Part shown: one piece after another, positions 11,949 through 27,194 of the stretch | Layout of the letters: each line of letters starts with the position of its first letter | Numbering within the stretch: position 1 is the stretch's first letter | Source of the DNA: Flavobacteriales bacterium | GTDB taxonomy: Bacteria; Bacteroidota; Bacteroidia; Flavobacteriales_D; Crocinitomicaceae | Length of the DNA stretch: 49,820 nt | Assembly (NCBI GenBank): GCA_947463385.1 | Contig: CANHSL010000008.1 | Coordinates: 1 to 49,820 of the forward strand | Reading direction: 5' to 3' | The notes under the pieces: generated by a model | What the model was told of the DNA's origin: nothing | What the model saw: only the letters and a program-made list of their open reading frames with translations | Database searches by the model: none | Program-made: the position numbers and the translations under genes

Positions 11949-13451
11949 TTACTTTACTCTGATTCTATCCCCCACACGGATCATATTGCCTACCCCGGGA
12001 TTCAGTTTTTTCAGTTGCGCTAGCGTGAGGTTGTTCTTAGTTGCGATTCGACTCAAGGTATCTCCTGATTTAACGGTATAATACTTCTTCGGCTTAGGTA
12101 TTTGTACCGGGGTAATTGGGGTTTGTTTAACGGTATTAATTTTTTTCAATGTGAGGCGTTGACCCACATAAACATTGGTGGTTTGCAGTGCATTCCATTC
12201 CATTAATTCATCTGTCGACACACTATATTTCAGCGATATACTCTTTAATGTTTCACCTGTTTTCACTTTATGAAACGCATAATTAGCTGAAAGCGAATCA
12301 GAACCTGTTGCCGCACTATCGAGCTGCATCGTTGTATCTTGTGTAAAAGGATTTACTGCTTGCGACGGATTCTCAAGAAGATATAACGAATCTTCTACAC
12401 CCACCAATAGGGTTATTTTATCCAACGGGCCTGTAACACACCGTTTTTTAATAGACGCGGGGATGAATTCCGTTTTATAAATTGGATTTAGGTCCTTAAT
12501 CTGTTGTAACTCCCAATCGAGTGCTTTAGCAATCGTACTCATGTGTAACCCGCGCTTTAGGCACATGGTATCCAATTGTGCATTATGAATTTTTGCTGCA
12601 GCCGGCATCAAATTATGTTCGGCATGAAAGGTCATTAAGTATGCGGCGGCTATAAATGTTGGCACATATCCTTGAGTTTCCGAGGGAAGGCTTGAGCGAA
12701 TGGCCCAATAAGAGCGTTGATTACCGGAACGTTCTATCGCTCGATTAATCGTTCCTGGACCTGCATTATACGCCGCTAAAGCGAGGTTCCAATCCCCGTA
12801 AATTCCGTAAAGTTTTTTCAAAAACCGACACGCTGCATCGGTTGCTTTTTGTGGGTCCATGCGTTCGTCTATGTAGGAGGTTTCTTCTAAGCCATAATAC
12901 AAACCTGTTCGGTACATAAACTGCCATAAACCAAGCGCACCGGCCTTAGACTTTACTTGAGGCCTTAAGCCACTTTCAATACAAGCCAAATATTTTAATT
13001 CGAGTGGCAAGCCATACTCTGCTAATTTCTCTTCAAATAAGTCAAAATATAAGGCTGAACGTCCGAGAATAATTTTAACGAATGACCTTCGATTTTCTGC
13101 AAAATAGCGAATAGAGGAAAGGGTAATGGCATTGCAATCAAATCCAAATGGGCTTTGATTATTCATTTGATTTAAGCGTTCACAATACACATCTTCTGTA
13201 AATAAAGGAACGGTGGTTGGTTCGTAATTTAGGGCTTTAATGATCGAATCCGAATATTTAGTGTTCGCGTAATCTGCATAAAAATAATTTAAGGATTGCT
13301 CGACAGTATTTAAAAAATGATCCGGGTGGAGTGTATCATTTGGATTTTGCAGATACGGGTTTTTCTGTCCAAACCCCACCGTATAAAGCGCCGTTATTAA
13401 AAAGCAAAAGGTATGCTTAAGCCGTAAATTTCTCCACCAGTTGCGTTGCAT
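11949..13451 (-). CDS. LysM-containing lytic transglycosylase (MltD-like)
   Basis: This enzyme cleaves the glycan strands of peptidoglycan. After a Sec-type signal peptide (HTFCFLITALYTVGFGQ) comes the family 1 transglycosylase domain with the catalytic Glu159 in CIESGL, followed by KSKAGALGLWQFM and the ALAAYNAGPGTI motif. Two LysM domains occupy roughly residues 392-437 and 452-498 (each starting YxVKxGDTL/ETL), and anchor the enzyme to peptidoglycan. No lipobox cysteine is seen, so it is probably periplasmic and not lipid-anchored. The start overlaps the end of gatA by 35 bases; there is no later Met that would keep the signal peptide, so the overlap is probably real. Confidence 0.92.
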   Translation of the reverse strand: MQRNWWRNLRLKHTFCFLITALYTVGFGQKNPYLQNPNDTLHPDHFLNTVEQSLNYFYADYANTKYSDSIIKALNYEPTTVPLFTEDVYCERLNQMNNQSPFGFDCNAITLSSIRYFAENRRSFVKIILGRSALYFDLFEEKLAEYGLPLELKYLACIESGLRPQVKSKAGALGLWQFMYRTGLYYGLEETSYIDERMDPQKATDAACRFLKKLYGIYGDWNLALAAYNAGPGTINRAIERSGNQRSYWAIRSSLPSETQGYVPTFIAAAYLMTFHAEHNLMPAAAKIHNAQLDTMCLKRGLHMSTIAKALDWELQQIKDLNPIYKTEFIPASIKKRCVTGPLDKITLLVGVEDSLYLLENPSQAVNPFTQDTTMQLDSAATGSDSLSANYAFHKVKTGETLKSISLKYSVSTDELMEWNALQTTNVYVGQRLTLKKINTVKQTPITPVQIPKPKKYYTVKSGDTLSRIATKNNLTLAQLKKLNPGVGNMIRVGDRIRVK

Positions 13452-14823
13452 AAAACAAGTCGTTTTCCCGAAACTGATCGGTCATTAATTGAATACCAAA
13501 AGGCAGGCCATTGGAATGGACACCAAGCGGTAAACTAAGCGCTGGATTGCCCGTAAGGTTGGCGTGAACTGTAAAAATATCTTGTAAATACATTTCAATC
13601 GGATCTTTTACCTCTCCGATTTTAAATGCAGTTGAAGGCGTTGTTGGCATTAAGATACAGTCTACTTTCGTGAAAATATCCCGGGTTTTATCCTGTAGTA
13701 CTCGTCTAACTTTCTGCCCTTTGGTGTAATAGGTATCATACTGCTCATTAGACAAGACAAAAGTTCCTGTCATTATTCTTCGCTTTACCTCTTCACCAAA
13801 CCCTTCGTTTCTTGAACGGATATACGTTTCTTCGACTCCTTCAGCCAAGGTAGACCGGTGGCCATAATGCACCCCATCAAAACGGGCTAAATTCGAAGAT
13901 GCTTCAGCGGTGGTCAGTACATAATAAACTGGCACCACGTAATCCATATATGGAAAAGAAAACTCACTTACCTCGTGACCGCTTTCCTGTAATTTTTTAA
14001 TGAGTACATCCATTGAAAATTTAACCTCTGAATCTAAGCCAGGATGGTTCATGTATTCCGCAAGCACGCCAAAGCGCAGTGGAGAAGCTTTTACGGTATG
14101 GGCTTCCACCTCGCGGGATGACGTTGTGGAATCTTTTGGATCTTTACCGGCCATTATTTGATATAACAATTCGGCATCCGACACATTGGTGGTAAATGTT
14201 CCGATTTGATCAAACGATGAGGCATAAGCAATTAAGCCGTACCGGCTAATTCTTCCATAGGTGGGTTTCAGCCCGTACGTCCCGGTCCATGAAGCGGGTT
14301 GCCGAACGGATCCACCGGTATCACTGCCGAGTGAGGCGGTGCACAATCCTGCCGAAACGGCAACAGCAGACCCTCCTGAAGAACCCCCAGGAACATACGC
14401 TGAATTTATGGCATTGCGAACCGGACCAAAGGCGGATTTTTCGTTAGAACTTCCCATGGCAAATTCGTCGCAATTTAATCTACCTAAGATTATGGCATCT
14501 TCATCAATTAAGCGCTGCACAGCGGTAGCGGTGTATAAGGATTCGAATCCCGCCAATATTTTGGAAGAAGCAGAAACATGATGTCCATTAAAACACAAAT
14601 TGTCTTTGATGCCAACAAAGGTGCCTGCCAATCGGCCTGCGGTTCCGTTATTAACTTTACCTTGGATTCTTTCAGCAGCATCACGCGCTGAAACTTCAAA
14701 TACTTCTAGGTATGCATTTAAGTGTTTATGCTCCTCTATCTGCCGTAAATAATGCTCGAGGATGTCCACAAGAGGAACGCCCGACGCAAGGGCCGACTTA
14801 TTTTCTTGAATCGCATTAAACAT
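13417..14823 (-). CDS. gatA: Glutamyl-tRNA(Gln) amidotransferase subunit A
   Basis: GatA supplies ammonia from glutamine to convert Glu-tRNA(Gln), and sometimes Asp-tRNA(Asn), to the amidated form. The amidase-signature triad is complete: Lys73 in VGIKDN, cis-Ser148 in PGGSSGGSA and nucleophile Ser172 in DTGGSVRQPA. The spacing matches characterised GatA. At 468 residues it is full length. Neither gatB nor gatC is nearby, as is usual in Bacteroidota where the subunits are scattered. It starts 3 bases past the tatA stop and its 3' end overlaps the transglycosylase gene. A tRNA-Gln(TTG), the likely substrate type, is encoded at 33424-33496. Confidence 0.95.
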   Translation of the reverse strand: MFNAIQENKSALASGVPLVDILEHYLRQIEEHKHLNAYLEVFEVSARDAAERIQGKVNNGTAGRLAGTFVGIKDNLCFNGHHVSASSKILAGFESLYTATAVQRLIDEDAIILGRLNCDEFAMGSSNEKSAFGPVRNAINSAYVPGGSSGGSAVAVSAGLCTASLGSDTGGSVRQPASWTGTYGLKPTYGRISRYGLIAYASSFDQIGTFTTNVSDAELLYQIMAGKDPKDSTTSSREVEAHTVKASPLRFGVLAEYMNHPGLDSEVKFSMDVLIKKLQESGHEVSEFSFPYMDYVVPVYYVLTTAEASSNLARFDGVHYGHRSTLAEGVEETYIRSRNEGFGEEVKRRIMTGTFVLSNEQYDTYYTKGQKVRRVLQDKTRDIFTKVDCILMPTTPSTAFKIGEVKDPIEMYLQDIFTVHANLTGNPALSLPLGVHSNGLPFGIQLMTDQFRENDLFYATQLVEKFTA

Positions 14824-14826
14824 AGA

Positions 14827-15030
14827 TTACTTCTCTTCGATTTGCTTTTCGTTGGAAGCTGTTGGCTTATTTTCTTCGTTTTTAGAAGCGTCTTTAAACT
14901 CCTTAATTCCTTGACCCAATCCTTTCATGAGTTCAGGAATTTTTTTTCCTCCAAACAACAATAATACAATAAGTAAAATCAGGATAATGTGTCCACCTGA
15001 AAAAAGCTGCGCATGTTGGATATGTTGCAT
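14827..15030 (-). CDS. tatA: Twin-arginine translocase subunit TatA/E
   Basis: This small Tat pore protein has one N-terminal membrane helix ([17 protein letters not shown]), the conserved [20 protein letters not shown] amphipathic helix and a charged tail. It forms the ring that moves folded proteins across the inner membrane. The ACIII protein ActB in this window has a twin-arginine signal and is a likely client. Of two possible starts I prefer MQHIQHAQ (base 15030); the alternative at 15051 adds only seven residues. It lies between infB and gatA in the same transcript direction. No tatC is visible. Confidence 0.92.
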
Positions 15031-15085
15031 ACTAAAATAGTTTAGATACAAAGGTACGCAATTCTAATTCACAACCGTGCACTAA

Positions 15086-17692
15086 TTATAGCTTTCTTGC
15101 TACCTCAACCTCTTCGTAGGCCTCCACATGATCGCCAATCTGAATGTCGTTGAATTTATCAATATTCAACCCGCACTCATAATTGTTTTTAACCTCTTTT
15201 ACATCGTCTTTGAAGCGCTTAAGTGACCCGAGGGTACCGTTGTGAATCACAATTCCATCGCGAATCACACGAACTTTAGACGTTCGCTTAATAATACCAT
15301 CAAGGACGTAACACCCTGCAATCGTACCCACCTTGGTGATTTCGAAGGTTTCGCGAATTTCTGCAGTACCAAGCACTTTTTCTTCAATATCTGGAGAAAG
15401 CATTCCCTCCATAGCCGCTTTGATTTCTTCAATGGCCTTGTAGATAATTGAGTATAACCTGATGTCGATTTGTTCTATTTCTGCAAGCTTTCTTGCCCCA
15501 ACCGTTGGTCGAACCTGGAATCCGATGATAATGGCATCAGATGCCGAAGCCAAGTTAATGTCGGCCTCAGAAATGGCTCCAACGCCTTTAAGTACAATAT
15601 TTACTTGGATTTCTGGTGTTGAAAGGTTCAATAAGGCGTCAGAAAGGGCTTCAATCGATCCGTCCACATCACCTTTGACAATGATGTTTAATTCTTTAAA
15701 GTCTCCAATGGCTAAACGACGACCAATTTCATCGAGTGTAATGTGTTTATTTGTTCGAAGGCCTTGTTCTCTATAGAGTTGCTCTCGTTTGGATGCGATA
15801 GATTTTGCTTCTTTTTCATCATCCAACACGTGAAATTTATCTCCTGCACTAGGGGCTCCATTTATTCCTAGAATTGAAAGTGGTTGTGACGGTCCGGCTA
15901 ATTTAAGTGCCTTGCCATGTTCATCATGCATTGCACGAACGCGGCCGTAATGTCTACCAACAAGCACAACATCTCCAATGTGCATTGTACCCGCCTCCAC
16001 AAGAATGTTTGTGACATAGCCTTTCCCTTTATCTAAGGAAGACTCGATTACTGTTCCAACTGCATTCTTATTTGGATTTGCTTTCAATTCGAGCATTTCT
16101 GCTTCGAGTAGCACTTTATCTAACAATTCGCTAATGTTCAAGCCTTGTTTTGCTGAAATCTCTTGCACCTGGTATTTCCCCCCCCAATCCTCTACAAGGA
16201 TATTCATTTGAGATAATTGTTCTCTAATGCGGTCTGGATTGGCGCCAGGTTTATCTATTTTGTTAATTGCAAAAATCATAGGAACGCCTGCTGCTTGGGC
16301 ATGAGAAATGGCTTCCTTCGTTTGAGGCATCACATCATCGTCTGCTGCTACTATAATAATGGCAAGGTCAGTAACCTGGGCACCTCGAGCACGCATCGCG
16401 GTAAACGCTTCGTGACCCGGTGTATCGAGGAACGTCATTTTTCTATTGTCCTTAAGGGTTACCGAATAGGCCCCAATGTGCTGGGTGATTCCTCCGGCTT
16501 CTCCTTCGGTTACATTCGCATTTCTGATGCGATCTAACAAGGAAGTTTTTCCGTGGTCTACGTGACCCATTACCGTAATAATTGGCGGTCTTGAAATCAG
16601 ATCTTCAGGAGCATCTTCAACGGTAAGCACGGCATCTTGTACTTCTGCGCTAATGAATTCTGTTTCGTAGCCAAATTCATCAGCAACAATTTGAATGGTT
16701 TCCGCATCCAATCGTTGATTAATTGATGCAAAAATACCTAGAGACATACAGGCAGAGATGACTTGTGTTGGCTGAACATTCATCATACTAGCCAATTCAG
16801 ACACCGTAACAAACTCAGAAAGTTTTAGTACTTTTTCATCCATCTCAGCGGCAAGCATTTCTTCTTGACGACGTTGAGCAACATTATCTCTCTTAATTCT
16901 TCGATTCTTGGAGGACTTAGATTTAGCGCCTTGACCGGAAAGCCTAGCCAGGGTCTCTTTAATCTCTTTTTGAATGTCCTGTTCGGAAATTTCTTTTTTC
17001 TCTACTTTAAACGCTCCTGGTTTAGCGGGTTGGCCTTTCGCACCTGGAGCAGGTGTTTCCACCTTTTTAATGCGTTTACGTTTGCGTTTTTCTTCTTCCG
17101 AAGCACTCGATGTGCTAGACTTCGGCCGCTCAATTGGAAGCTCTATTTTACCAAGTACGGTTGGCCCACTTAGCACCGTTCGCTCAGTTTTTATAGTTTC
17201 AATAATAGGAGCAGATGGCTTTTCTTCAACCTTAGGCTCAATCGGTTTAGGTGCTTCAACAACCGGTTCTGGTTGGGGAGGCTCAGGTTTTTTCTTGGTA
17301 TTTAATTGGTCTAAATCGATTTTTCCTACCACATTAACTTGTGATTTTGGCTTTACCGTTTCAGGCTCAAAAACCGTTCGTTTAATTTCTTCAAGATTAA
17401 TCTCGTCTTCTTCCTCTTCAAGTTGTTTTTCTTGAATTGGGGCTTCTTGACGGGCATCTTTCAGTGAAATTGATTCCTTCTTTTCTTTTAAGGAAGAACC
17501 TTTGGCTTGTTCTTTTAGTGTTTGATCTGCTGCAAACTCGGTACATAAAATTTGAAAATGTTCCGGGTCTAGTTTAGTGTTTGGATTAGAGTCAATAGAA
17601 ATGCCTTTAGACCCTAAAAATTCCACTAACGTTGGTAATCCAACATTCAATTCACTTGCTGCTTTTCCTAAACGAATGGGTTTCCCTGCCAT
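15086..17692 (-). CDS. infB: Translation initiation factor IF-2
   Basis: This GTPase places initiator tRNA on the small ribosomal subunit. The N-terminus has an IF2-N domain ([20 protein letters not shown]), then a long lysine/glutamate/proline-rich linker to about residue 290, then a second IF2-N-like helix bundle. The G domain starts near residue 373 with GHVDHGKTS, followed by DTPGHE and NKIDKP. The C-terminal domains II, III and IV follow, with the [20 protein letters not shown] ending that binds fMet-tRNA. At 868 residues it is normal for the phylum. It is the third gene of rimP-nusA-infB, a conserved bacterial operon. Many antisense open frames over the linker are composition artefacts. 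Confidence 0.97.
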
Positions 17693-17719
17693 AATATTAT
17701 TCCCTATTGTATTTCAAAG

Positions 17720-18955
17720 TTATTCAAATTCTGCATTCAATATTTTGAATACTTCTTCGATTGTTTCTTTTTCTAAATCCGTACGTTTCACTAACTCTTC
17801 AATGCTCATCTCTAATACAGACTTAGCGGTATCGCATCCAATGGTTTTTAACTCATCTATAATCCACCCGTCAATTTCATCTGCAAATTCTTCCAAGTCT
17901 ACGTCCTCAACGTCTACTTCACCATCGCGATAAACATCAATTTCATAACCCGCCAATTTGCCAGCTAATTTAATGTTGTTCCCTCCGCGACCTATTGCCA
18001 ACGACACTTGATCTGGCTTTAGGAACACCTTCACGCGTTTCTCTTCCTCATCAATTTCCATGGAGGTGATTTTCGCTGGAGACAAGGCACGTTGTATTAA
18101 TAATTGATTGTTTGATGTATAATTGATTACATCAATGTTTTCATTTCTAAGTTCACGAACAATACCGTGGATTCGACTTCCTTTCATACCAACACAGGCA
18201 CCTACCGGGTCGATTCGATCATCATAAGACTCAACAGCAACTTTTGCTCGTTCTCCTGGTTCACGAACGATTTTTTTAATCGTAATTAACCCATCAAAAA
18301 CTTCCGGCACTTCCAGTTCGAACAAACGCTCTAAAAATTCCGGAGCCGTTCTTGAAAGAATAATTACTGGCGTACTATTACGCATATCCACCTTAGACAC
18401 CACCGCACGAACGGTCTCTCCTTTCTTGAAGAAATCCGATGGAATTTGCTCAGACTTCGGAAGGATTAGTTCATTGTGATCATCGTCCATTACCAAAATT
18501 TCTTTTTTCCACACTTGATAAACCTCACCGGTCACTATCTCTCCGACACGTTCTTTGTATTTTTTATACAAATGATCTTTTTCTAATTCAAGAATTCGGG
18601 AGATTAAATTTTGTCGCAATGAAAGCACGTTTCTTCTTCCGAAATCCATAAACTTGAATTCTTCAGTCACTTCCTCGCCAATTTCAAAATCCGGTTCGAT
18701 TTTAATGGCATCAGAATAGGCGATTTCTGTATTTGGATCTTCCACTTCCCCATCATCCACAATTTCTTTGTTTAAGAAGATCTGAACATCACCTTTTTCA
18801 ATGTTCACAATTACATCAATATGCTCATCGGTATTGAATTTCTTTTTCAACATGGCTCGAAATACATCTTCAAGCACATGCTGCATGGTTTGCTTGTCAA
18901 TGTTCTTAAGCTCTTTAAACTCGGAAAAGGATTCAACTAAATCAATACTATTCAT
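17720..18955 (-). CDS. nusA: Transcription termination/antitermination factor NusA
   Basis: NusA binds RNA polymerase and modulates pausing, intrinsic termination and antitermination. In order, the protein shows the N-terminal polymerase-binding domain, an S1 domain (GEIVTGEVYQVWKKEILV), and two KH domains (the first around VGACVGMKGSRIHGIVREL, the second around SLAIGRGGNNIKLAGKL). A short acidic region and a helix-hairpin-helix-like end (SVLEMSIEELVKRTDLEKE) follow. At 411 residues it lacks the pair of C-terminal acidic repeats of the E. coli protein. It lies 6 bases from rimP and 27 from infB. The hairpin in the operon leader could be a target of its own regulation. Confidence 0.96.
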   Translation of the reverse strand: MNSIDLVESFSEFKELKNIDKQTMQHVLEDVFRAMLKKKFNTDEHIDVIVNIEKGDVQIFLNKEIVDDGEVEDPNTEIAYSDAIKIEPDFEIGEEVTEEFKFMDFGRRNVLSLRQNLISRILELEKDHLYKKYKERVGEIVTGEVYQVWKKEILVMDDDHNELILPKSEQIPSDFFKKGETVRAVVSKVDMRNSTPVIILSRTAPEFLERLFELEVPEVFDGLITIKKIVREPGERAKVAVESYDDRIDPVGACVGMKGSRIHGIVRELRNENIDVINYTSNNQLLIQRALSPAKITSMEIDEEEKRVKVFLKPDQVSLAIGRGGNNIKLAGKLAGYEIDVYRDGEVDVEDVDLEEFADEIDGWIIDELKTIGCDTAKSVLEMSIEELVKRTDLEKETIEEVFKILNAEFE

Positions 18956-18961
18956 TTGTTT

Positions 18962-19435
18962 TTATTTAAAGGATATTACACGTTTTATTTCTTTGATTTC
19001 TTTTTTCGAAAGAGACAGTTCTTCCTGAATGCTTACATTTTTATTCTTTTCATTCTTAATCTTCCGTTCAACGGTCACTAAAAACCCGTCCGAGTTGAAC
19101 GATTTTAACACCCCTTCAACCTGCACCCCATCCGTCTTAAGAAAGGTAAGAAGTCGGCCTGTATTTTTAATGAATTGTTTTTCATGACGCAAGGGCCGAT
19201 CCATGCCTGCAGAAGAAACATTTAATTCAAAATCTACCGATTCACGGTCCAGATTGTGTTCCACATTCCTTGAAACAGAGATGCAGTCTTCAATTGAAAC
19301 ACCACCCTCTTCACGATCCAATTCTATGTTTATCACATTGCGCGTAGAAATTGATAAGTCTACAATGAAAAGCCCTCTATTCAGTTCTTGAATGCGCTCT
19401 TCCGCTAAGCTTAATACTAAATTCTTGTCAATCAT
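18962..19435 (-). CDS. rimP: Ribosome maturation factor RimP
   Basis: RimP assists assembly of the 30S subunit. The 157-residue sequence has the family pattern: an N-terminal alpha/beta domain with the VINIELDREEGGVSIEDCISVSR segment, then LNVSSAGMDRPL, followed by an SH3-like C-terminal domain. It is the first gene of the rimP-nusA-infB operon. The ATG at 19435 is preceded, with only three bases between, by the T-run of a terminator-like hairpin. There is no purine-rich ribosome-binding site, so initiation must rely on the AT-rich leader. Confidence 0.93.
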   Translation of the reverse strand: MIDKNLVLSLAEERIQELNRGLFIVDLSISTRNVINIELDREEGGVSIEDCISVSRNVEHNLDRESVDFELNVSSAGMDRPLRHEKQFIKNTGRLLTFLKTDGVQVEGVLKSFNSDGFLVTVERKIKNEKNKNVSIQEELSLSKKEIKEIKRVISFK

Positions 19436-19438
19436 TGT

Positions 19439-19465
19439 AAAAAAAGAGGGGACTTTCGTCCCCTC
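19439..19465 (-). terminator. Intrinsic terminator-like hairpin in the rimP leader (candidate attenuator)
   Basis: On the minus strand, GAGGGGAC, a GAAA tetraloop and GTCCCCTC (19465-19446) form a perfect 8-bp stem that is followed at once by seven T residues (19445-19439), then ACA and the rimP ATG. The T-run exists only for minus-strand transcription. No minus-strand gene lies upstream that would need it before the coxA terminator, so it most likely acts on transcripts started at the rimP promoter. Confidence 0.75.
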
Positions 19466-19484
19466 ATTATCGTTTATCTTATGG

Positions 19485-19516
19485 CAAAGATAGGGTAAAA
19501 CTCCTTAACTACCAAA
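19485..19516 (-). promoter_or_regulatory. Promoter of the rimP-nusA-infB operon
   Basis: On the minus strand, TTTG (19516-19513), a 20-base spacer and TATCTTTG (19492-19485) fit the Bacteroidota consensus. Transcription should start near 19479, about 14 bases before the leader hairpin begins and about 44 bases before the rimP ATG. Confidence 0.72.
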
Positions 19517-19532
19517 TACAAAAAATTCCTAC

Positions 19533-19540
19533 TAATTTTG
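19533..19540 (+). promoter_or_regulatory. -7 element directly before the DUF3109 gene
   Basis: TAATTTTG matches TAnnTTTG and ends 4 bases (GGAC) before the ATG at 19545, the same spacing as at engB and the SPOR gene. No clear TTG is found at the -33 distance, so support is moderate. The region between this gene and rimP therefore holds two diverging promoters. Confidence 0.5.
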
Positions 19541-19544
19541 GGAC

Positions 19545-20126
19545 ATGCTAATTGAGTTAAACGACACCATTGTCTCCGCTGAAATTTTCAAGCGAAAATT
19601 TGTATGTGACCTTACTGCATGTAAAGGAGCATGTTGTATTGAGGGTGATGCTGGCGCCCCACTAACAACCGATGAGGTAGCTCAAATTGAAAACAATTTA
19701 ACGCATATTATACCCTTTATGCGGAAAGAAGGCATTGACGCGGTAAATAAAAATGGGGTATCTTACTTTGACCAAGAGAAAGAGCCGGTGACCATGTTGA
19801 TAGAAGGTAAGGAATGTGCCTTTGTGTTTTTTGATGCGAACAAAACGGCGTTATGTGCCATCGAAGCAGCGCACCGCGCCGGAAAAATCGAAAACATTAA
19901 ACCTATATCTTGTTCACTCTATCCAATTAGGGTTAAACAATACCACGATTTTAAGGCCTTGCAATTCGATGAGTGGAAGATTTGTGAACCCGCGTGCTCA
20001 TGCGGAGAAAAACTCGACGTTCCGGTTTATAAGTTTCTTAAAGAGCCTTTAATTAGGGCGTTTGGAAAAGCTTATTACGAAGAATTAGAATTAGTGGCTC
20101 CTGAAATCGAACAGATTGAGCCATAA
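19545..20126 (+). CDS. DUF3109 family cysteine-rich protein
   Basis: This 193-residue protein of unknown function is conserved across Bacteroidota. It has the YkgJ-like pattern of clustered cysteines: CDLTACKGACCIEGDAGAP near the N-terminus, later CAFVFF and CAIEAA, then SCSLYPIR and the CEPACSCGE group. Such clusters suggest binding of zinc or an iron-sulphur centre; no experiment is implied here. There is no signal peptide, so it is probably cytoplasmic. It stands alone between the rimP and cox operons, is divergent from rimP, and seems to lack a 5' leader. Its 3' end runs into the coxA terminator hairpin. Confidence 0.82.
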   Translation: MLIELNDTIVSAEIFKRKFVCDLTACKGACCIEGDAGAPLTTDEVAQIENNLTHIIPFMRKEGIDAVNKNGVSYFDQEKEPVTMLIEGKECAFVFFDANKTALCAIEAAHRAGKIENIKPISCSLYPIRVKQYHDFKALQFDEWKICEPACSCGEKLDVPVYKFLKEPLIRAFGKAYYEELELVAPEIEQIEP

Positions 20127-20145
20127 AAAAGCCCCTTTCGGGGCT
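20124..20145 (-). terminator. Terminator of the ACIII-cox operon
   Basis: On the minus strand, AGCCCC, GAAA and GGGGCT (20145-20130) form a 6-bp GC-rich stem followed by TTTTTTAT, 12 bases past the coxA stop. The stem can also form in plus-strand RNA after the DUF3109 gene, but only a weak T-run follows there. Confidence 0.75.
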
Positions 20146-20157
20146 CTATCATTTCAA

Positions 20158-22014
20158 TTAATGCTCTACTTCTCCTTCTGCAAGAGGAACATCCTGAGGA
20201 ATAAAATCATCTGATGCACCAGGCTTAGAATAATCATACGGCCAACGGTGAACTACAGGTAAAGCGCCAGGCCAGTTTCCATGAATATGCTCAACCGGAG
20301 TTGTCCATTCAAGTGTGTTTGACTTCCACGGGTTCTGTGGTGCCGCAGGACCACGGTAGATACTATAGAAGAAATTAAATAAGAAAATAAGCTGACCTAA
20401 GGCAGCAATAATTGCGAACACCGTAATAATAACATTAAGATCCATTATCATATTGAATGATTCTGTATCAAATTCACCATAAACGGAATAATCGTAGTAA
20501 CGTCGTGGTGCGCCAGCTAGACCCACAAAGTGCATTGGGAAGAATACGCCATAGGCACCAACTATAGTAATCCAAAAATGTACATAACCCATGCGGTTAT
20601 TCATCATTCGTCCGTACATTTTAGGGAACCAATGGTATACACCCGCAAACATTCCAAATACAGCTGACATACCCATAACGATATGGAAGTGAGCTACTAC
20701 AAAGTACGTATCATGAATGGCAATATCCAACGCGGAATCCGCTAAGATAATCCCAGTAACACCACCGGTAATAAATGTTGAGACAAGAGCAATCGCAAAC
20801 AACATAGCTGGTGTATACACGATTGAACCTCTCCATAGGGTTGTAATGTAGTTAAATACTTTAACTGCCGAAGGAATCGCAATTAATAGTGTTGTAAATA
20901 CAAACACACTTCCTAAGAATGGATTCATACCCGTAATAAACATGTGGTGACCCCACACGATAAAGGATAAGAATCCAATCGCTAAAATTGATCCAATCAT
21001 CGCTTTATAACCAAATATTGGTTTTCTTGAATTGGTTGCAATAATCTCTGAGGATAAGCCTAGCGCAGGTAATAATACAATATATACCTCCGGGTGACCT
21101 AAGAACCAAAATAAATGTTGGAATAAAAGCGGTGACCCACCATGATTTGTTAGCATCTCACTACCTACCATAATATCCGATAAGTAAAAACTTGTTCCTG
21201 CCATACGGTCCATGATGAGCAATAACGCAGCAGACAATAATACAGGGAAAGATAGTACCCCGAGAATTGCAGTAACAAAAAACGCCCAAATGGTTAACGG
21301 CATTCTTGTCATCGTCATGCCAGTAGTACGTAAATTCAATACCGTAACGATATAATTCAAACTTCCGATCAAAGAACCTGCGATAAATATGGCCATAGAA
21401 AACAACCACAGGGTCATCCCGAAACCAGACCCAGAAACGGCTTGAGGCAACGCAGATAATGGCGGATAAACTGTCCACCCTGCCATCGCAGGACCATTCC
21501 CTACTGTACCCCAATCACCTGGAAAATCAATCCCGAAAACTGAACCATTCATCACAAACAATGAAAGGAACATAATTAAAGAGGACAATAAGAAAAACCA
21601 ATAGGACAACATATTTAAAAATCCCGACGCCATGTCTCGAGCTCCTAATTGAAGAGGAATTAAAATGTTAGAAAATGTCCCTGAAAGTCCCCCAGTTAAA
21701 AGGAAGAACACCATAATGGTTCCGTGAATGGTTACCAATCCCAGATACATATCTTCTTTAAGGACTCCTTCTGGGGCCCATTGATCGCCTAAAAAGAAAT
21801 TCAAGAAATCTGAACTTTCTCCGGGCCATGCCAATTGAATTCTAAATAAAATAGACAAGAGCATTGCCACTAATCCCATAAAAACAGCAGTTATTAAGAA
21901 CTGCTTTCCAATCATTTTATGATCTTGGCTAAAAATATATTTTGAAACAAAACTTTCTTCATGATGATGATCATGGTGATCATGAGAATGTACATCGTGT
22001 GCTGCTGAAGCCAT
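20158..22014 (-). CDS. coxA: Cytochrome c oxidase subunit I (aa3 type)
   Basis: This is the catalytic subunit of the haem-copper oxidase, with about twelve membrane helices. The HPEVY motif (FWFLGHPEVYIVLLP) gives the CuB histidine, the E of type A1 oxidases and the cross-linked tyrosine, while WGHHMF supplies the two further CuB histidines. HDTYFVVAHFHIVM holds the haem ligands. At 618 residues it has no fused subunit III. The first 19 residues are unusually rich in histidine (MASAAHDVHSHDHHDHHHE). It is the last gene of the act-cox operon and follows coxB by 26 bases. Subunits III and IV are not encoded here. Confidence 0.96.
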   Translation of the reverse strand: MASAAHDVHSHDHHDHHHEESFVSKYIFSQDHKMIGKQFLITAVFMGLVAMLLSILFRIQLAWPGESSDFLNFFLGDQWAPEGVLKEDMYLGLVTIHGTIMVFFLLTGGLSGTFSNILIPLQLGARDMASGFLNMLSYWFFLLSSLIMFLSLFVMNGSVFGIDFPGDWGTVGNGPAMAGWTVYPPLSALPQAVSGSGFGMTLWLFSMAIFIAGSLIGSLNYIVTVLNLRTTGMTMTRMPLTIWAFFVTAILGVLSFPVLLSAALLLIMDRMAGTSFYLSDIMVGSEMLTNHGGSPLLFQHLFWFLGHPEVYIVLLPALGLSSEIIATNSRKPIFGYKAMIGSILAIGFLSFIVWGHHMFITGMNPFLGSVFVFTTLLIAIPSAVKVFNYITTLWRGSIVYTPAMLFAIALVSTFITGGVTGIILADSALDIAIHDTYFVVAHFHIVMGMSAVFGMFAGVYHWFPKMYGRMMNNRMGYVHFWITIVGAYGVFFPMHFVGLAGAPRRYYDYSVYGEFDTESFNMIMDLNVIITVFAIIAALGQLIFLFNFFYSIYRGPAAPQNPWKSNTLEWTTPVEHIHGNWPGALPVVHRWPYDYSKPGASDDFIPQDVPLAEGEVEH

Positions 22015-22040
22015 GTTTATTGAGTTTAAATCTTTATTAA

Positions 22041-23282
22041 TTAATTCATTGCTGTTTTAACGGTATCCTTTGCAGGGGTAGCGGTTGCTGCGGGAGCAGC
22101 TGGCGCAGGAAAATAGGAGGCCTTAAAGTTTTTAGCTGCCCTTCCTTTCATCCATGCGTTATACTCTGCCTCTTCCAATACAACCACCATTAACTTCATT
22201 TTATAATGTGCTCCACCACAAATTTTGTTACACATTAACACGTAATTAAATGTTGGAAGGTTTTTGATGGTTCGCATTTCTTCCGTAGTCTTGTTCGGTG
22301 TGAACTTCATGCGTGTTCCGTATCCAGGAACGGTATTCATTTGTGTTCTAAAGTGTGGGAAATATGCAGAGTGGATTACATCCTTTGAGCGAAAAGAAAA
22401 CTCGTAAGGTTTATTCACGCACAAATACAAGGTGTCTTTTTGAACAATGTCATCATATACATGCTTATCCATAGAAACATTGTGTGTAGATTTCATTTGC
22501 GTTAACAAGCGCAACAACCGTTCTTTACTGCCTAAATCTTTTCTAAGAACAGCGGTCAAAGAATCCGTTAATACAGTATCTCGGTTATTTAGCAACTTTT
22601 TAATATCTGAAATACCACCTGCTCCTTGACGCATAGCTAAAATAGAAGAATCAATTGTAGCCGCAGTCATTAAGCCTAATTCGTTGTTGCCTAAAATTAA
22701 TTTATAATCTGTTTTACCTAAGGTGTTATCTCCTCCGGAATATCGTGCAGTCCAATCGAATTGCTTAGAATACAATTCTACCTGAATAGCATCTTTCGGG
22801 GAAGCCGAAGTAACTTCATTCCACGTTCTTAACCCTAAAATTATTATTACCGCCAATACCGCTGCAGGTACCACAGTCCACAACATCTCTAGTTTGTTGT
22901 TATGCGGATAATAATACGCCTTTACTCCTGGTTTCTTAACATACTTATAGGAGAAAAAGAACAACAAGAAGTTTGTTAGGAAGAAGATTGCTATAACAAT
23001 AACAAAATTCAAATTCAACAACCAATCCGTCGCTTCTCCTTGAACCGATGCAGCCGGACCTCTTCCTGTCCATCCGTATTTCAACATCAAATAGATGAAC
23101 CCGCCAAATTGAAATACCATAAAGGCTAGCATCAACTTAGCGTTCAAGTAATTATCACGGGTTGGAATTTCATGTTCACCCTGTTTTCTCAACTTTGCCG
23201 TTAATTCATAAACTCGAACAAGCTGTGATATGGCAATAGCTCCTATTACCACAATCAAGATCATTATCAATTTATTTTCCAT
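22041..23282 (-). CDS. coxB: Cytochrome c oxidase subunit II
   Basis: This subunit carries the CuA centre that accepts electrons. Hydrophobic segments lie near residues 5-20, 48-68, 90-112 and 133-152, followed by the periplasmic cupredoxin domain. CuA ligands are visible: His304 in DVIHSAYFPHFR, then Cys351, Cys355, His359 and Met362 in CNKICGGAHYKM. The residue between the cysteines that is Glu in most oxidases is Lys here, as I recall for other Flavobacteria. A stretch of about 80 residues (roughly 200-280) interrupts the usual beta strands before LYLCVNKPYEF and looks like a lineage-specific insertion. There is no fused cytochrome c domain, in agreement with direct supply from ACIII. Confidence 0.94.
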   Translation of the reverse strand: MENKLIMILIVVIGAIAISQLVRVYELTAKLRKQGEHEIPTRDNYLNAKLMLAFMVFQFGGFIYLMLKYGWTGRGPAASVQGEATDWLLNLNFVIVIAIFFLTNFLLFFFSYKYVKKPGVKAYYYPHNNKLEMLWTVVPAAVLAVIIILGLRTWNEVTSASPKDAIQVELYSKQFDWTARYSGGDNTLGKTDYKLILGNNELGLMTAATIDSSILAMRQGAGGISDIKKLLNNRDTVLTDSLTAVLRKDLGSKERLLRLLTQMKSTHNVSMDKHVYDDIVQKDTLYLCVNKPYEFSFRSKDVIHSAYFPHFRTQMNTVPGYGTRMKFTPNKTTEEMRTIKNLPTFNYVLMCNKICGGAHYKMKLMVVVLEEAEYNAWMKGRAAKNFKASYFPAPAAPAATATPAKDTVKTAMN

Positions 23283-23300
23283 TTCTTCCGCTAATTTTCA

Positions 23301-24488
23301 TTAAAATTCATGATGTATACTCTCGTCCAAAAACGGGTGATTAACCGGCATTAATGGTGCTTTCGATAGATTCTTTAACAAAATCAAAATAAATATTCCC
23401 GACATCATAATCGGTAAGCCTATTTCTAACATTCCAATATGCCAATTCGACCCAAGGGAACCTCCGGATACCATAATATATACATCCAACCAATGTCCAA
23501 TTAAAATTACTAGGCCAACAAACGTTAATACTCCTGCATCTCTTTTCGCATCTCTTGACATTAAAATCAACATTGGAAAAACGAAATTTATAAAGAACAT
23601 ACCAAAATACAAGTACTTATAGTTTTCCGTTCGCATAACATAATAAATGACCTCCTCACCAATGTTAGCATACCAGATAAGCATATACTGAGAGAACCAT
23701 AAATATGACCAAAGGAATGAAATCGCAAAAATCCATTTACCAATATCATGTATGTGTGAATCATTTACGTTTTCCAAATACCCTTGTTTTTTCAAGTAAA
23801 TCGTGGTTAACACAATTACCACCATAGCTGAAACCCACATTCCTGCAAAGGTATACCATCCAAACAAGGTGCTATACCAGTGTACATCAATAGACATTAA
23901 CCAATCCCAAGCAGAGGTTGAACTAAATACTGCGAAAAACACTAGGAAGGTGGCTCCTTTTCTGTAGTTTGTAAAATGGATCTCTGTTCCACCTACTTGA
24001 TCCTCTAACAATGAACGCTTTCTAAATCCGCGCAAAAACAATAAATAAACCGCGAAGTATACCAAGGTTCGAATCCAAAAGAATGCAATATTTAAGTAAG
24101 GAGACTTCCCTTGAATGAGCTTATCTTCTGCCACTACATGTCCATCCATCCATGTATAGATGTGAGCACCTTTCATGAATGAAATTGTTAATAAAACAAC
24201 CCCGAATATTCCGATACCGTAAGGCAAATAAAGGGCTACAGATTCAATTACACGTTTTACCACAGCATACCAACCGGCTTCCGTAGCGTAATTTAGCGCA
24301 AGAAAAAACAAGGCCCCTAAGCCAATTGCAAAAAAGAAAAAGGCATTTATTAAGCCATTCGTCATTAGGCGAGTAACAAAATGTGCTTCACCAATGTTGC
24401 TGATAATTCCAACAATGGCTAATAAGGCGCCAACCCCAATAAGTCCGAAGGCTGTGTTTTTCGCTTTTTTAGTAATTGTAAATTCCAT
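23301..24488 (-). CDS. actF: Alternative complex III subunit ActF
   Basis: ActF is a polytopic membrane subunit of the quinol:electron-acceptor oxidoreductase ACIII, related to ActC but with a different helix arrangement. About ten hydrophobic segments are visible in 395 residues, along with conserved features such as SSTSAWDWLMSIDVHWYSTLFGWY. I place the start at MEFTITKKAK (base 24488), four bases past the actE stop; the longer reading would overlap actE. It lies between actE and coxB, the order expected for ACIII-oxidase gene clusters that make a supercomplex. Confidence 0.9.
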   Translation of the reverse strand: MEFTITKKAKNTAFGLIGVGALLAIVGIISNIGEAHFVTRLMTNGLINAFFFFAIGLGALFFLALNYATEAGWYAVVKRVIESVALYLPYGIGIFGVVLLTISFMKGAHIYTWMDGHVVAEDKLIQGKSPYLNIAFFWIRTLVYFAVYLLFLRGFRKRSLLEDQVGGTEIHFTNYRKGATFLVFFAVFSSTSAWDWLMSIDVHWYSTLFGWYTFAGMWVSAMVVIVLTTIYLKKQGYLENVNDSHIHDIGKWIFAISFLWSYLWFSQYMLIWYANIGEEVIYYVMRTENYKYLYFGMFFINFVFPMLILMSRDAKRDAGVLTFVGLVILIGHWLDVYIMVSGGSLGSNWHIGMLEIGLPIMMSGIFILILLKNLSKAPLMPVNHPFLDESIHHEF

Positions 24489-24492
24489 GATC

Positions 24493-25215
24493 TTAGTTTT
24501 GTTTTGTTGTATCCGCAACTGCCGCGGTACCATTTGCATTAAACTTCCCGTAATCGGCTGATTGGAGGGTTCTGATATAATGAATTACCGTCCAGATTTC
24601 CTTTTTATTTAACAACGAACGGTGGGCTCCCATCATACCTTTTCCGTAATAAATGGAATAAAACATTTGTCCATCCGATAATGCCGCGCGTTCTGCATAA
24701 TTAGGAACACCAGAGTAGGCTCCAGAAGTTACCATTGGACCGTTACCATCTCCTTTCTCACCATGACAGTGTTGACACATGGCCGTGAACAATTCCTTTC
24801 CCTTTCCTAATATTGCCTCTGCGTTTCCTGCATTGAGAACCAACATGTTTTTATCCGCAGCTGCTGCTGTGTAATGATCTTCACGCGTTAGCTGATCGTT
24901 GTACATTCCGTGGCTCGCTTTGAACGATTCATTCGCCAAACGGGAGTATGGCATCATTAATCTTACTTCCGTACTATCGGTACCAAAAAACGGGATAGTA
25001 AATGCCGGAGGGGCCATTGCCGTTAAGCGGGTTTTCTTTGTTTCATCAATACGACCGCGAACTTCACCATAATCAACATAGGCTTCAATCGCTGGTGAAC
25101 GATACATGTCGGGCATATATTCTAGACCCGGGCTATCTGCATTGGATGTGCAGGAACTCAAAACGAGTACACTTACGGCTACAGTTCCAACTATTTTCAA
25201 AAAGGACTTTTTCAT
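24493..25215 (-). CDS. actE: Alternative complex III monohaem cytochrome ActE
   Basis: This is a lipid-anchored c-type cytochrome of ACIII. The signal peptide ends VLVLSSC-TSN, a lipobox, and a single haem-binding CQHCH motif occurs near residue 146, with a plausible Met ligand further on in GMMGAHRS. At 240 residues it is typical. In the known ACIII structures this subunit lies on the periplasmic side and passes electrons between the ActA haems and the acceptor. It sits between actD and actF in the operon. Confidence 0.9.
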   Translation of the reverse strand: MKKSFLKIVGTVAVSVLVLSSCTSNADSPGLEYMPDMYRSPAIEAYVDYGEVRGRIDETKKTRLTAMAPPAFTIPFFGTDSTEVRLMMPYSRLANESFKASHGMYNDQLTREDHYTAAAADKNMLVLNAGNAEAILGKGKELFTAMCQHCHGEKGDGNGPMVTSGAYSGVPNYAERAALSDGQMFYSIYYGKGMMGAHRSLLNKKEIWTVIHYIRTLQSADYGKFNANGTAAVADTTKQN

Positions 25216-25230
25216 TATTCTCCTTAATTC

Positions 25231-25767
25231 TTATTCGATTATTTTCTTATCTAACTCAACAAAACCAGTGTCTTTTAACAACTCATCTAACTTCTCTTCG
25301 GAAACACCATGGTTATCAGACATCCGGATTTCCATTACAAATTTATCATCTGTAGTTCTCGGGTCTGGGTTTTGAGCAGGCATACCTGGTAGCGTTCTAT
25401 TAAGTAACAAATAGGTAATTGCCATACCATGCGCAGCACACAACACCGTAAATTCAAAAGAAATCGGAATGAATGCCAATATATTCTCTACATAAGAGAA
25501 ATTTGGTTTACCCCCTATGTTCATTTTCCATTCAACTACCATGAAATAATACATCCCAATAGTTGCTAGAGTCAACCCGGTTAATCCATATAAGAACGCC
25601 ATGATTCCAAGGCGCGTGCCTTTAACACCGATAATTGGATCAATACCGTGAATTGGGAACGGACTATAAACTTCCGAAATTTTTACCCCTCCAGAGACCA
25701 ACTTTTTAGCGCTTGATTTCAGCACCTCGTCGTCTCCATACATTGCATATATTACTTTATCTGACAT
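25231..25767 (-). CDS. actD: Alternative complex III subunit ActD (DUF3341)
   Basis: This 178-residue membrane protein has two hydrophobic helices in its central part (AFLYGLTGLTLATIGMYYF and LAFIPISFEFTVLCAAHGM) and soluble ends. It matches the DUF3341/ActD family, a small structural subunit of ACIII. The segment YSPFPIHGID is characteristic of the family. It lies nine bases downstream of actC and 15 bases upstream of actE. Confidence 0.9.
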   Translation of the reverse strand: MSDKVIYAMYGDDEVLKSSAKKLVSGGVKISEVYSPFPIHGIDPIIGVKGTRLGIMAFLYGLTGLTLATIGMYYFMVVEWKMNIGGKPNFSYVENILAFIPISFEFTVLCAAHGMAITYLLLNRTLPGMPAQNPDPRTTDDKFVMEIRMSDNHGVSEEKLDELLKDTGFVELDKKIIE

Positions 25768-25776
25768 AATCCGATA

Positions 25777-27165
25777 TTAATGATGTTTATGATAATCAGG
25801 TGATTCTTTATACGATTGTCCTGAGCCTTTCAAAATTGTTTTTACCTCATTCAATGCAAGTACCGGGAAATAACGCGCAAACAACAAGAAGAACACAAAG
25901 AACAAACCAATTGTACCAACGTATACTGCGATATCAATGTGGCTAGGATAGTGCATACTCCAAGCTGCTGGAATGTAATCTCTATGAATTGATGTAACAA
26001 TAATTACGTAGCGTTCAAACCACATTCCAATATTCACAACAATTGAAATAAAGAAGGTAAATAATAAGCTTCTTCTTAATTTTCTAATCCACATAAGTTG
26101 TGGTGAAATCACGTTACAAGTCATCATCGACCAATAAGCCCACCAATACGGTCCGGTTGCACGATTCAAGAAGGCATATGCTTCATACTCAACGCCAGAG
26201 TACCAAGAAATAAAAAGTTCTGTAATATACGCTGTTCCAACTATTGAACCCGTTACCATAATTACAATGTTCATATACTCTACGTGCTTTGTATGAATGT
26301 AGGCTTCTAAATTCATTGCCTTCCGCATGACAAGCAATAAAGTTTGTACCATTGCAAATCCCGAGAATACCGCACCCGCAACAAAATATGGAGGGAAAAT
26401 CGTAGTATGCCATCCCGGAATTACCGACGTAGCAAAGTCAAAAGATACAATCGAGTGAACCGAGAACACGAGTGGTGTTGCTAAGCCCGCTAATACTAAA
26501 GAAACTAATTCAAAGCGATTCCAATGTTTTGCTCTACCAGACCAACCAAATGATAAGATGGAATACATGCGTTTTGCAACAGGCTTTTTCGCACGGTCAC
26601 GAATGGTTGCGAAATCTGGAATTAACCCGATATACCAAAACACCAAGGAAACTGATAAATAGGTAGAAATCGCAAACACGTCCCACAATAACGGAGAGTT
26701 AAAGTTAACCCATAAGGAACCGAAATGGTTAGGAATTGGAAGTACCCAATACCCTACCCACAAGCGACCCATGTGAATTAACGGGAAGGTACCCGCCATA
26801 AATACCGCAAAAATCGTCATTGCCTCCGCGGAACGGTTAATTGCCATTCTCCATTTCTGACGGAAAAGCAATAGTACCGCAGAAATTAAGGTGCCCGCGT
26901 GACCAATACCTACCCACCAAACGAAGTTGGTAATATCCCAAGCCCAACCGATGGTCTTATTCAATCCCCAAACACCAATACCCGTTCCAAGTAGATACAA
27001 AATAGATCCAACGCCATATAATCCAATGATTAATGCGATGGCAAATAAGATATACCACATTTTGGGTGCCTTGCCTTCAATCGGACGACATACATCTTCT
27101 GTTACGTCGTGATATGTTTTATTCCCAAGGATTAGGGGTTCCCTAATTGCTGCTTCCTTTTGCAT
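25777..27165 (-). CDS. actC: Alternative complex III subunit ActC (NrfD/PsrC-like)
   Basis: ActC is a large membrane subunit of the NrfD/PsrC family that forms the menaquinol-binding site beneath ActB. The 462 residues contain about ten hydrophobic helices, and include the motifs GIGHAGTLISAVLLLFRQKWR and FWYIGLIPDFATIRDRAKK, well conserved in ACIII. The histidine/aspartate-bearing loop at IGHAGT is thought to belong to the quinol site. The gene follows actB by 29 bases. Confidence 0.93.
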   Translation of the reverse strand: MQKEAAIREPLILGNKTYHDVTEDVCRPIEGKAPKMWYILFAIALIIGLYGVGSILYLLGTGIGVWGLNKTIGWAWDITNFVWWVGIGHAGTLISAVLLLFRQKWRMAINRSAEAMTIFAVFMAGTFPLIHMGRLWVGYWVLPIPNHFGSLWVNFNSPLLWDVFAISTYLSVSLVFWYIGLIPDFATIRDRAKKPVAKRMYSILSFGWSGRAKHWNRFELVSLVLAGLATPLVFSVHSIVSFDFATSVIPGWHTTIFPPYFVAGAVFSGFAMVQTLLLVMRKAMNLEAYIHTKHVEYMNIVIMVTGSIVGTAYITELFISWYSGVEYEAYAFLNRATGPYWWAYWSMMTCNVISPQLMWIRKLRRSLLFTFFISIVVNIGMWFERYVIIVTSIHRDYIPAAWSMHYPSHIDIAVYVGTIGLFFVFFLLFARYFPVLALNEVKTILKGSGQSYKESPDYHKHH

Positions 27166-27194
27166 TGTTCTTGCTTTTAGTTTCTGTAAATATC

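Follow-up and report, generated by a model that had tools for sequence, protein, structure and literature searches.

In a 49,820-nt stretch of DNA from a Flavobacteriales bacterium of the family Crocinitomicaceae (contig CANHSL010000008.1 of assembly GCA_947463385.1; the whole stretch is called the window below), the operon rimP-nusA-infB is preceded by a hairpin and a run of T residues that lie between a predicted promoter and the start codon of the first gene (Table 1). We examined this element as a candidate transcription attenuator. Direct reading confirmed the arrangement given in the original prediction: promoter, short leader, GC-rich hairpin of 8 bp, seven T residues, three bases, and the rimP ATG. 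The leader is short, as claimed, but measures about 16 nt from the inferred start (about 19481) to the hairpin and not about 14. The promoter is of the Bacteroidota type, TTTG-N20-TATCTTTG on the minus strand; the upstream TTTG is presumably part of the promoter consensus. Boxes of the form TAnnTTTG at -7 are described as sigma-A type in the report on Flavobacterium psychrophilum (PMC9723704).

The stem is made of 8 perfect pairs, 6 of them G-C, closed by a GAAA loop, and it ends 10 nt from the rimP ATG. A folding energy of -15.7 kcal/mol (z -5.1) was calculated for the hairpin 20-mer and of -16.9 (z -4.6) for the 46-nt leader; neither CCC nor GGG is present in the leader. The hairpin core, GGGGACGAAAGTCCCC, occurred once in the 2.6 Mb assembly with 2 mismatches allowed. 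A terminator scan of positions 12000-28000 listed the hairpin with 8 pairs, and the bulk count of that scan (15 terminators observed, 13.8 expected in shuffles) was at chance level, so that the case rests on the quality and conservation of this particular hairpin. The motif TAnnTTTG was found 41 times in the window against 57 expected, which we judged neither rarer nor commoner than chance. Downstream of the promoter, the next minus-strand copy lies at 17715-17722, at the end of nusA; this TAACTTTG box at the nusA/infB junction is possibly an internal promoter for infB, or a product of chance.

Table 1. Promoter, leader, operon and adjacent terminator in the window.
Feature	Position	Strand	Basis
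TTTG upstream promoter element, 20 nt before the -7 box	19513..19516	minus	read from sequence
TATCTTTG, -7 box of predicted promoter	19485..19492	minus	read from sequence
Predicted transcription start	19481	minus	inferred from -7 box spacing (about 4 nt after the box)
Terminator hairpin GAGGGGAC-GAAA-GTCCCCTC	19446..19465	minus	terminator scan, folding, relatives, covariation
U7 tract of terminator (T7 in DNA)	19439..19445	minus	read from sequence
ACA between T7 and rimP ATG	19436..19438	minus	read from sequence
rimP ATG start codon	19433..19435	minus	read from sequence
rimP, first operon gene, 157 aa, RimP_N	18962..19435	minus	Pfam
nusA, 411 aa; NusA_N, S1 and KH domains; likely feedback factor	17720..18955	minus	Pfam
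infB, translation initiation factor IF-2	15086..17692	minus	Pfam
Separate terminator between the DUF3109 gene and coxA	20130..20145		plus-strand scan match; also on the coxA strand by detector

The gene divergent from the rimP operon belongs to DUF3109 according to Pfam. Among the best 80 of 592 matches to the NusA of the window, the closest named one (99 percent identity) came from a Crocinitomicaceae bacterium, and the next best named ones were mostly labelled Crocinitomicaceae or Flavobacteriales, which makes membership of the genome in this group probable.

Conservation of the hairpin across Bacteroidota

Regions upstream of rimP were collected from three sets. Among 60 relatives, 58 had a RimP, yielding 57 upstream regions (L002-L058, the order loci); the RimP_N domain was found in 194 of 198 genomes sampled across the phylum, from which 42 upstream regions were used; and the best 80 of 592 NusA matches supplied the named loci, 76 of which could be anchored at a RimP frame. 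The total was 175 anchors, 174 of them with at least 80 nt upstream. Our detector called perfect stems with 5 or more pairs and a T-rich tail behind them, and a match was termed strong if the stem had 6 or more pairs with 4 of them G-C. By this measure 166 of the 174 loci have a terminator-like hairpin before rimP, 162 of them strong (57/57 in the order, 75/75 named, 34/42 in the phylum sample). Since the detector itself demands a T-rich tail, all 166 leaders that it picked have one after the stem. The eight misses (L062, L069, L072, L076, L079, L176, L177, L188), when read by eye, were judged to hold hairpins with longer loops or imperfect stems and T runs behind them, in L079 far upstream of the anchor.

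Dinucleotide shuffles were positive in 23 of 870 cases, 2 of them strong; given this difference, the hairpin before rimP is not a chance occurrence. Other open reading frames gave 13/255 matches of any kind and 9/255 strong ones. Of the 107 frames that had 80 nt or more free ahead of them, 6 gave strong matches, two of these being the rimP leader seen from the divergent gene. The reverse strand of the leaders was positive in 35 of 174 loci (26 strong), because many leaders are symmetric.

Pairing in the stem was followed across 88 distinct hairpins from the order and named loci, 86 of which could be placed in register. With stems picked by pairing, pair -2 was paired in 82/86 and occurred as six types (GC, AT, TA, GT, CG, TG), pair +4 in 79/81 as six types (AT, GT, GC, CG, TA, TG), and pair +5 in 70/73 as four (CG, AT, GC, TA). 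When the 3' partner was slid by 1-2 positions, pairing fell to 19/86, 19/86, 9/78, and 20/73 at pair +4 and to 8/78, 6/81, 3/65, and 2/27 at pair +5. The loop ranged from 3 to 10 nt. The comparison of relatives called for by the original prediction supported its attenuator reading, both in the presence of hairpin and T-rich tail and in stem pairs that vary with pairing kept.

Within a genus, the constraint extends to the sequence itself. Thirty-five same-genus leaders share just 4 versions of the hairpin 20-mer, with a mean identity of 97 percent as compared to 39 and 36 percent in the flanking 20-mers. Of 28 same-genus loci, 19 had a strong terminator 450-1000 nt upstream, and no two of these 19 shared a hairpin, although the terminators compared need not correspond from genome to genome. 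The 5' arm was G-rich in all order loci (57/57), all named loci (75/75, class membership unverified), and all phylum loci of the same class (12/12). Outside the class of the window, 8 of the 22 detected hairpins had G-rich and 14 had C-rich 5' arms (the latter at L059, L061, L063, L065, L071, L074, L075, L078, L083, L085-L088, and L187); a G-rich 5' arm was therefore rejected as a universal mark for the phylum. Among 31 control 3' terminators, 8 were G-rich, 15 C-rich, and 8 even, one of the 8 being the rimP leader from the opposite strand. Judged from these sequences, structure is kept wherever examined, and sequence and polarity are kept within the class of the window.

The core AGGGGAC..GTCCCCT is present in 43 of 60 relatives. 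It was also considered as a signature of rimP alone and rejected, since 9 genomes (G002, G014, G016, G018, G025, G026, G032, G039, G045) carry extra copies away from rimP. In the 7 stretches read from 6 of these 9 genomes (L169-L175), the GGGGAC..GTCCCC copies lie between unrelated genes, like ordinary terminators.

Of the 166 detected hairpins, 131 have a TAnnTTTG box no more than 45 nt upstream, against a background of about 1.7 percent per window of 31 positions, and 150 have one within 230 nt. A CCC able to pair with a G-rich arm is absent from all 131 short leaders, and four of them (L117, L120, L126, L145) contain a GGG able to pair with a C-rich arm; CCC is present in 9 longer leaders, 8 of them with a tRNA. 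From the end of the stem to the start codon the median distance is 15 nt (range -1 to 108; 132 order and named loci, starts predicted).

In 14 of the 75 named loci, the rimP leader has a tRNA-Gln (TTG) gene ahead of it in the same orientation (L109, L110, L112, L113, L115, L118, L120, L121, L124, L126, L130, L135, L149, L153), and in 12 of these the nearest TAnnTTTG precedes the tRNA. The position parallels that of metY before rimP in Escherichia coli.

Association with nusA or with rimP

One family of the phylum offers a natural experiment on which gene the element serves. In the order to which it belongs, RimP_N was found in 33 and NusA_N in 40 of 41 genomes; 7 of the 8 RimP_N misses are all seven sampled genomes of a single family, f42 (G166, G217, G253, G266, G272, G277, G282), which are 98-100 percent complete. 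In none of the seven was RimP_N detected though nusA was present, a result of the single model PF02576 that would also fit a diverged RimP. Loss or strong divergence of RimP in this family is thus possible. The C-terminal domain of RimP (PF17384) was discarded as a test of absence, as it scored below cut-off even on the RimP of the window.

In all seven f42 genomes nusA is preceded, at 29-102 nt, by a GGGC..GCCC hairpin and its T-rich tail; six of them also have TAnnTTTG 7-18 nt before the hairpin (G277 is without an exact box). The standard detector found five of the seven; the other two loci, L205 and L220, have 4-bp stems. Among 23 rimP-bearing genomes of the same order, there was no detector match between rimP and nusA, and 17 had one in the rimP leader region. 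Because a like hairpin and T-run precede nusA where RimP_N was undetected, the element seems to go with nusA-infB and not with rimP, and the family points to nusA as the gene served.

A candidate attenuator of the nusA operon

Our best explanation, in which we have good but not full confidence, is that the element is a promoter-proximal intrinsic terminator that attenuates rimP-nusA-infB. RNA polymerase would start at the TATCTTTG promoter and make an RNA of about 42 nt; the GC-rich hairpin would fold and the polymerase halt in the U7 tract shortly before the rimP start codon, so that the operon would be expressed only by polymerases that read through. The ratio of stopping to going on would most likely be set by a protein on the polymerase and not by an alternative RNA fold, since the leader is short and without a CCC to sequester the G-rich arm. 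NusA, a product of the operon itself, is the best candidate: abundant NusA would stimulate termination and so hold its own level steady. The parts of this scheme differ in strength. The anatomy, its conservation with changing pairs, the want of an obvious antiterminator, and the like element before nusA were seen in the sequences; termination in the cell is deduced from them. That the element is an attenuator of some kind is very probable, and strong support comes from its conservation and covariation, from where the promoter lies, and from the genes that it precedes. The part of the original prediction that names NusA fared less well: it is plausible, with indirect support from the element before nusA where RimP was undetected, and we put the chance that NusA specifically is the sensor at about even.

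Attenuation of this operon has precedents in other bacteria. In the survey of Naville & Gautheret (2010), the rimP-leader is reported as the most ubiquitous attenuator, with NusA as best candidate regulator (PMC2965389). The published motif and the element in the window share the operon, a hairpin with T-stretch in the 5' untranslated region (UTR; here as defined by the predicted promoter), and a G-rich 5' and C-rich 3' arm. The published hairpins lie 4-130 nt before the gene without visible antiterminator, as compared to 10 nt and none in the window. The published stem is GGGc..gCCC; that of the window is GGGGAC..GTCCCC, and that of family f42 is GGGC..GCCC, like the published one, a stem also seen in several phylum-mates. 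The C-rich 5' arms found in 14 of 22 loci outside the class are opposite to the published motif. The main text of that survey nowhere contains the string 'Bacteroid', though its supplementary lists may include Bacteroidota. The Rfam model for this leader, RF01770 (rimP), was not among the matches at E up to 5 in 19300-19700, and the six Rfam matches there, all below gathering scores, were taken as chance. At the gathering cut-off the model matched 0 of 20 relatives (three weak matches, none on a rimP-bearing contig); of 14 controls, E. coli alone exceeded the cut-off.

In Streptococcus agalactiae, transcripts are reported to terminate within the rimP-nusA-infB 5' UTR, 31 nt from the start, and feedback by NusA was proposed (PMC4448216). 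There too an intrinsic terminator lies very near the start, and short and long RNAs arise from one start; that account draws on RNA and ours on sequence, in another phylum and with another promoter type. For Bacillus subtilis, the original prediction had named NusA-dependent attenuation in the leader of the nusA operon, and a review indeed states that NusA is autoregulated in this way in the 5' leader of its own operon (PMC12288461). The terminator likewise stands between promoter (here predicted) and first gene; dependence on NusA is stated for B. subtilis and inferred here. The E. coli metY-rimP-nusA-infB leader is described with two terminators, t1 and t2 (PMC6511841). We examined the E. 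coli sequence and found a G-rich/C-rich hairpin with T7 immediately before rimP, as in the window; the upstream tRNA of E. coli has its counterpart in the tRNA-Gln of 14 named Bacteroidota loci. The window differs in having one hairpin and no tRNA at that place.

The original prediction also knew of no such device in Bacteroidota, a claim that must be softened. A structured 5' element of rimP, without Rfam hit and conserved in other genera of Flavobacteriaceae, is reported from F. psychrophilum (PMC9723704). It is probably the same element as that in the window, likened here by description and not by sequence; the description drawn on here gives no terminator, link to NusA, mechanism, or wider distribution. 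The main text of the Bacteroides thetaiotaomicron transcript map does not name nusA (PMC7366714), and a literature search of open-licence papers, mostly of titles and the starts of abstracts, found no NusA-linked attenuator in Bacteroidota.

The main rival, which we think unlikely, is a constitutive brake: a terminator of fixed efficiency whose sole effect is to keep the basal yield of operon mRNA per initiation low, with neither NusA nor any other sensor. The strong hairpin, the unbroken U7, and a short leader without apparent antiterminator or ligand-binding domain all agree with a brake. A bare terminator needs pairing alone, yet the same-genus leaders hold four versions of the 20-mer where terminators farther upstream are all different, and regulation is also suggested by how widely the element occurs on the NusA operon, in several phyla. 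It is improbable that the hairpin instead serves RimP feedback or the translation of rimP. Its closeness to the start codon, in the window and at the median of the 132 loci, could affect ribosome binding; against this stand the seven f42 genomes with the element before nusA and a T-rich tail that marks a terminator and that a translational hairpin would not need, and the one genome with rimP apart from nusA is ambiguous.

We give still less credence to a terminator for transcription from upstream, whether read-through from coxA or a co-transcribed tRNA. The tRNA-Gln loci suit this idea, particularly the 12 with their nearest box before the tRNA. As the original prediction held, however, no minus-strand gene in the window needs the hairpin: coxA has its own terminator at 20130-20145, found by both scan and detector, and therefore does not depend on the one beside rimP. 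The predicted promoter within 45 nt in 131 of 166 loci would also oblige operon transcripts to pass the hairpin. Least probable of all is a protein-binding DNA palindrome, or operator, that merely resembles a terminator; near-invariance of the inverted repeat within a genus is what an operator would show, but loop length and stem pairs vary with pairing kept, a T-rich tail is present, and many loci outside the class are C-rich first.

Several points count against the attenuator and the role given to NusA. Eight loci needed reading by eye. Stems were picked by pairing, so the paired percentages are biased upward; pair -2 keeps its pairing in 67-72 of 86 after sliding, as do the GGG/CCC core pairs, which for that reason say little alone. 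In one genome, G221, rimP and nusA lie on different contigs (G221:C7 and G221:C3; L193, L194), and both upstream regions are ambiguous: the one hairpin seen ahead of rimP, which ends at a distance of 67 nt and has a short T-run, may be the terminator of the preceding gene. At the 12 of 75 named loci noted above, the hairpin could also end the tRNA transcript. The start site is a prediction, known here from sequence alone. Conservation demonstrates a terminator and not its regulator, and a strong hairpin with unbroken U7 might stop polymerase regardless of NusA; NusA is described as aiding suboptimal hairpins or tails, so that such a terminator is least expected to need it (PMC8060035). Finally, reporter fusions of the E. 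coli rimP 5' UTR plus open reading frame are reported to have fallen in a rho mutant (PMC7815308), and by analogy other control may act on the operon.

If the attenuator is nonetheless taken as the working explanation, the fixed stem of the window's class, GAGGGGAC..GTCCCCTC, might be read as both sequence and structure. A factor of early elongation, most likely NusA through its S1 and KH domains, would contact the G-rich arm, and a terminator so near the promoter would gauge how fast NusA joins the polymerase after sigma leaves; such a gauge would be phylum-wide and would stay with nusA even without rimP. We offer this as a speculation, more doubtful than otherwise.

What is new here is the wide distribution of the element in Bacteroidota, its unusually fixed stem sequence in the class of the window, and its link to nusA. 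The known range of an attenuator of a core transcription and translation operon is thereby extended broadly across a phylum that has its own promoter type, and autoregulation of NusA as an ancient, widespread homeostat becomes directly testable in tractable Bacteroidota.
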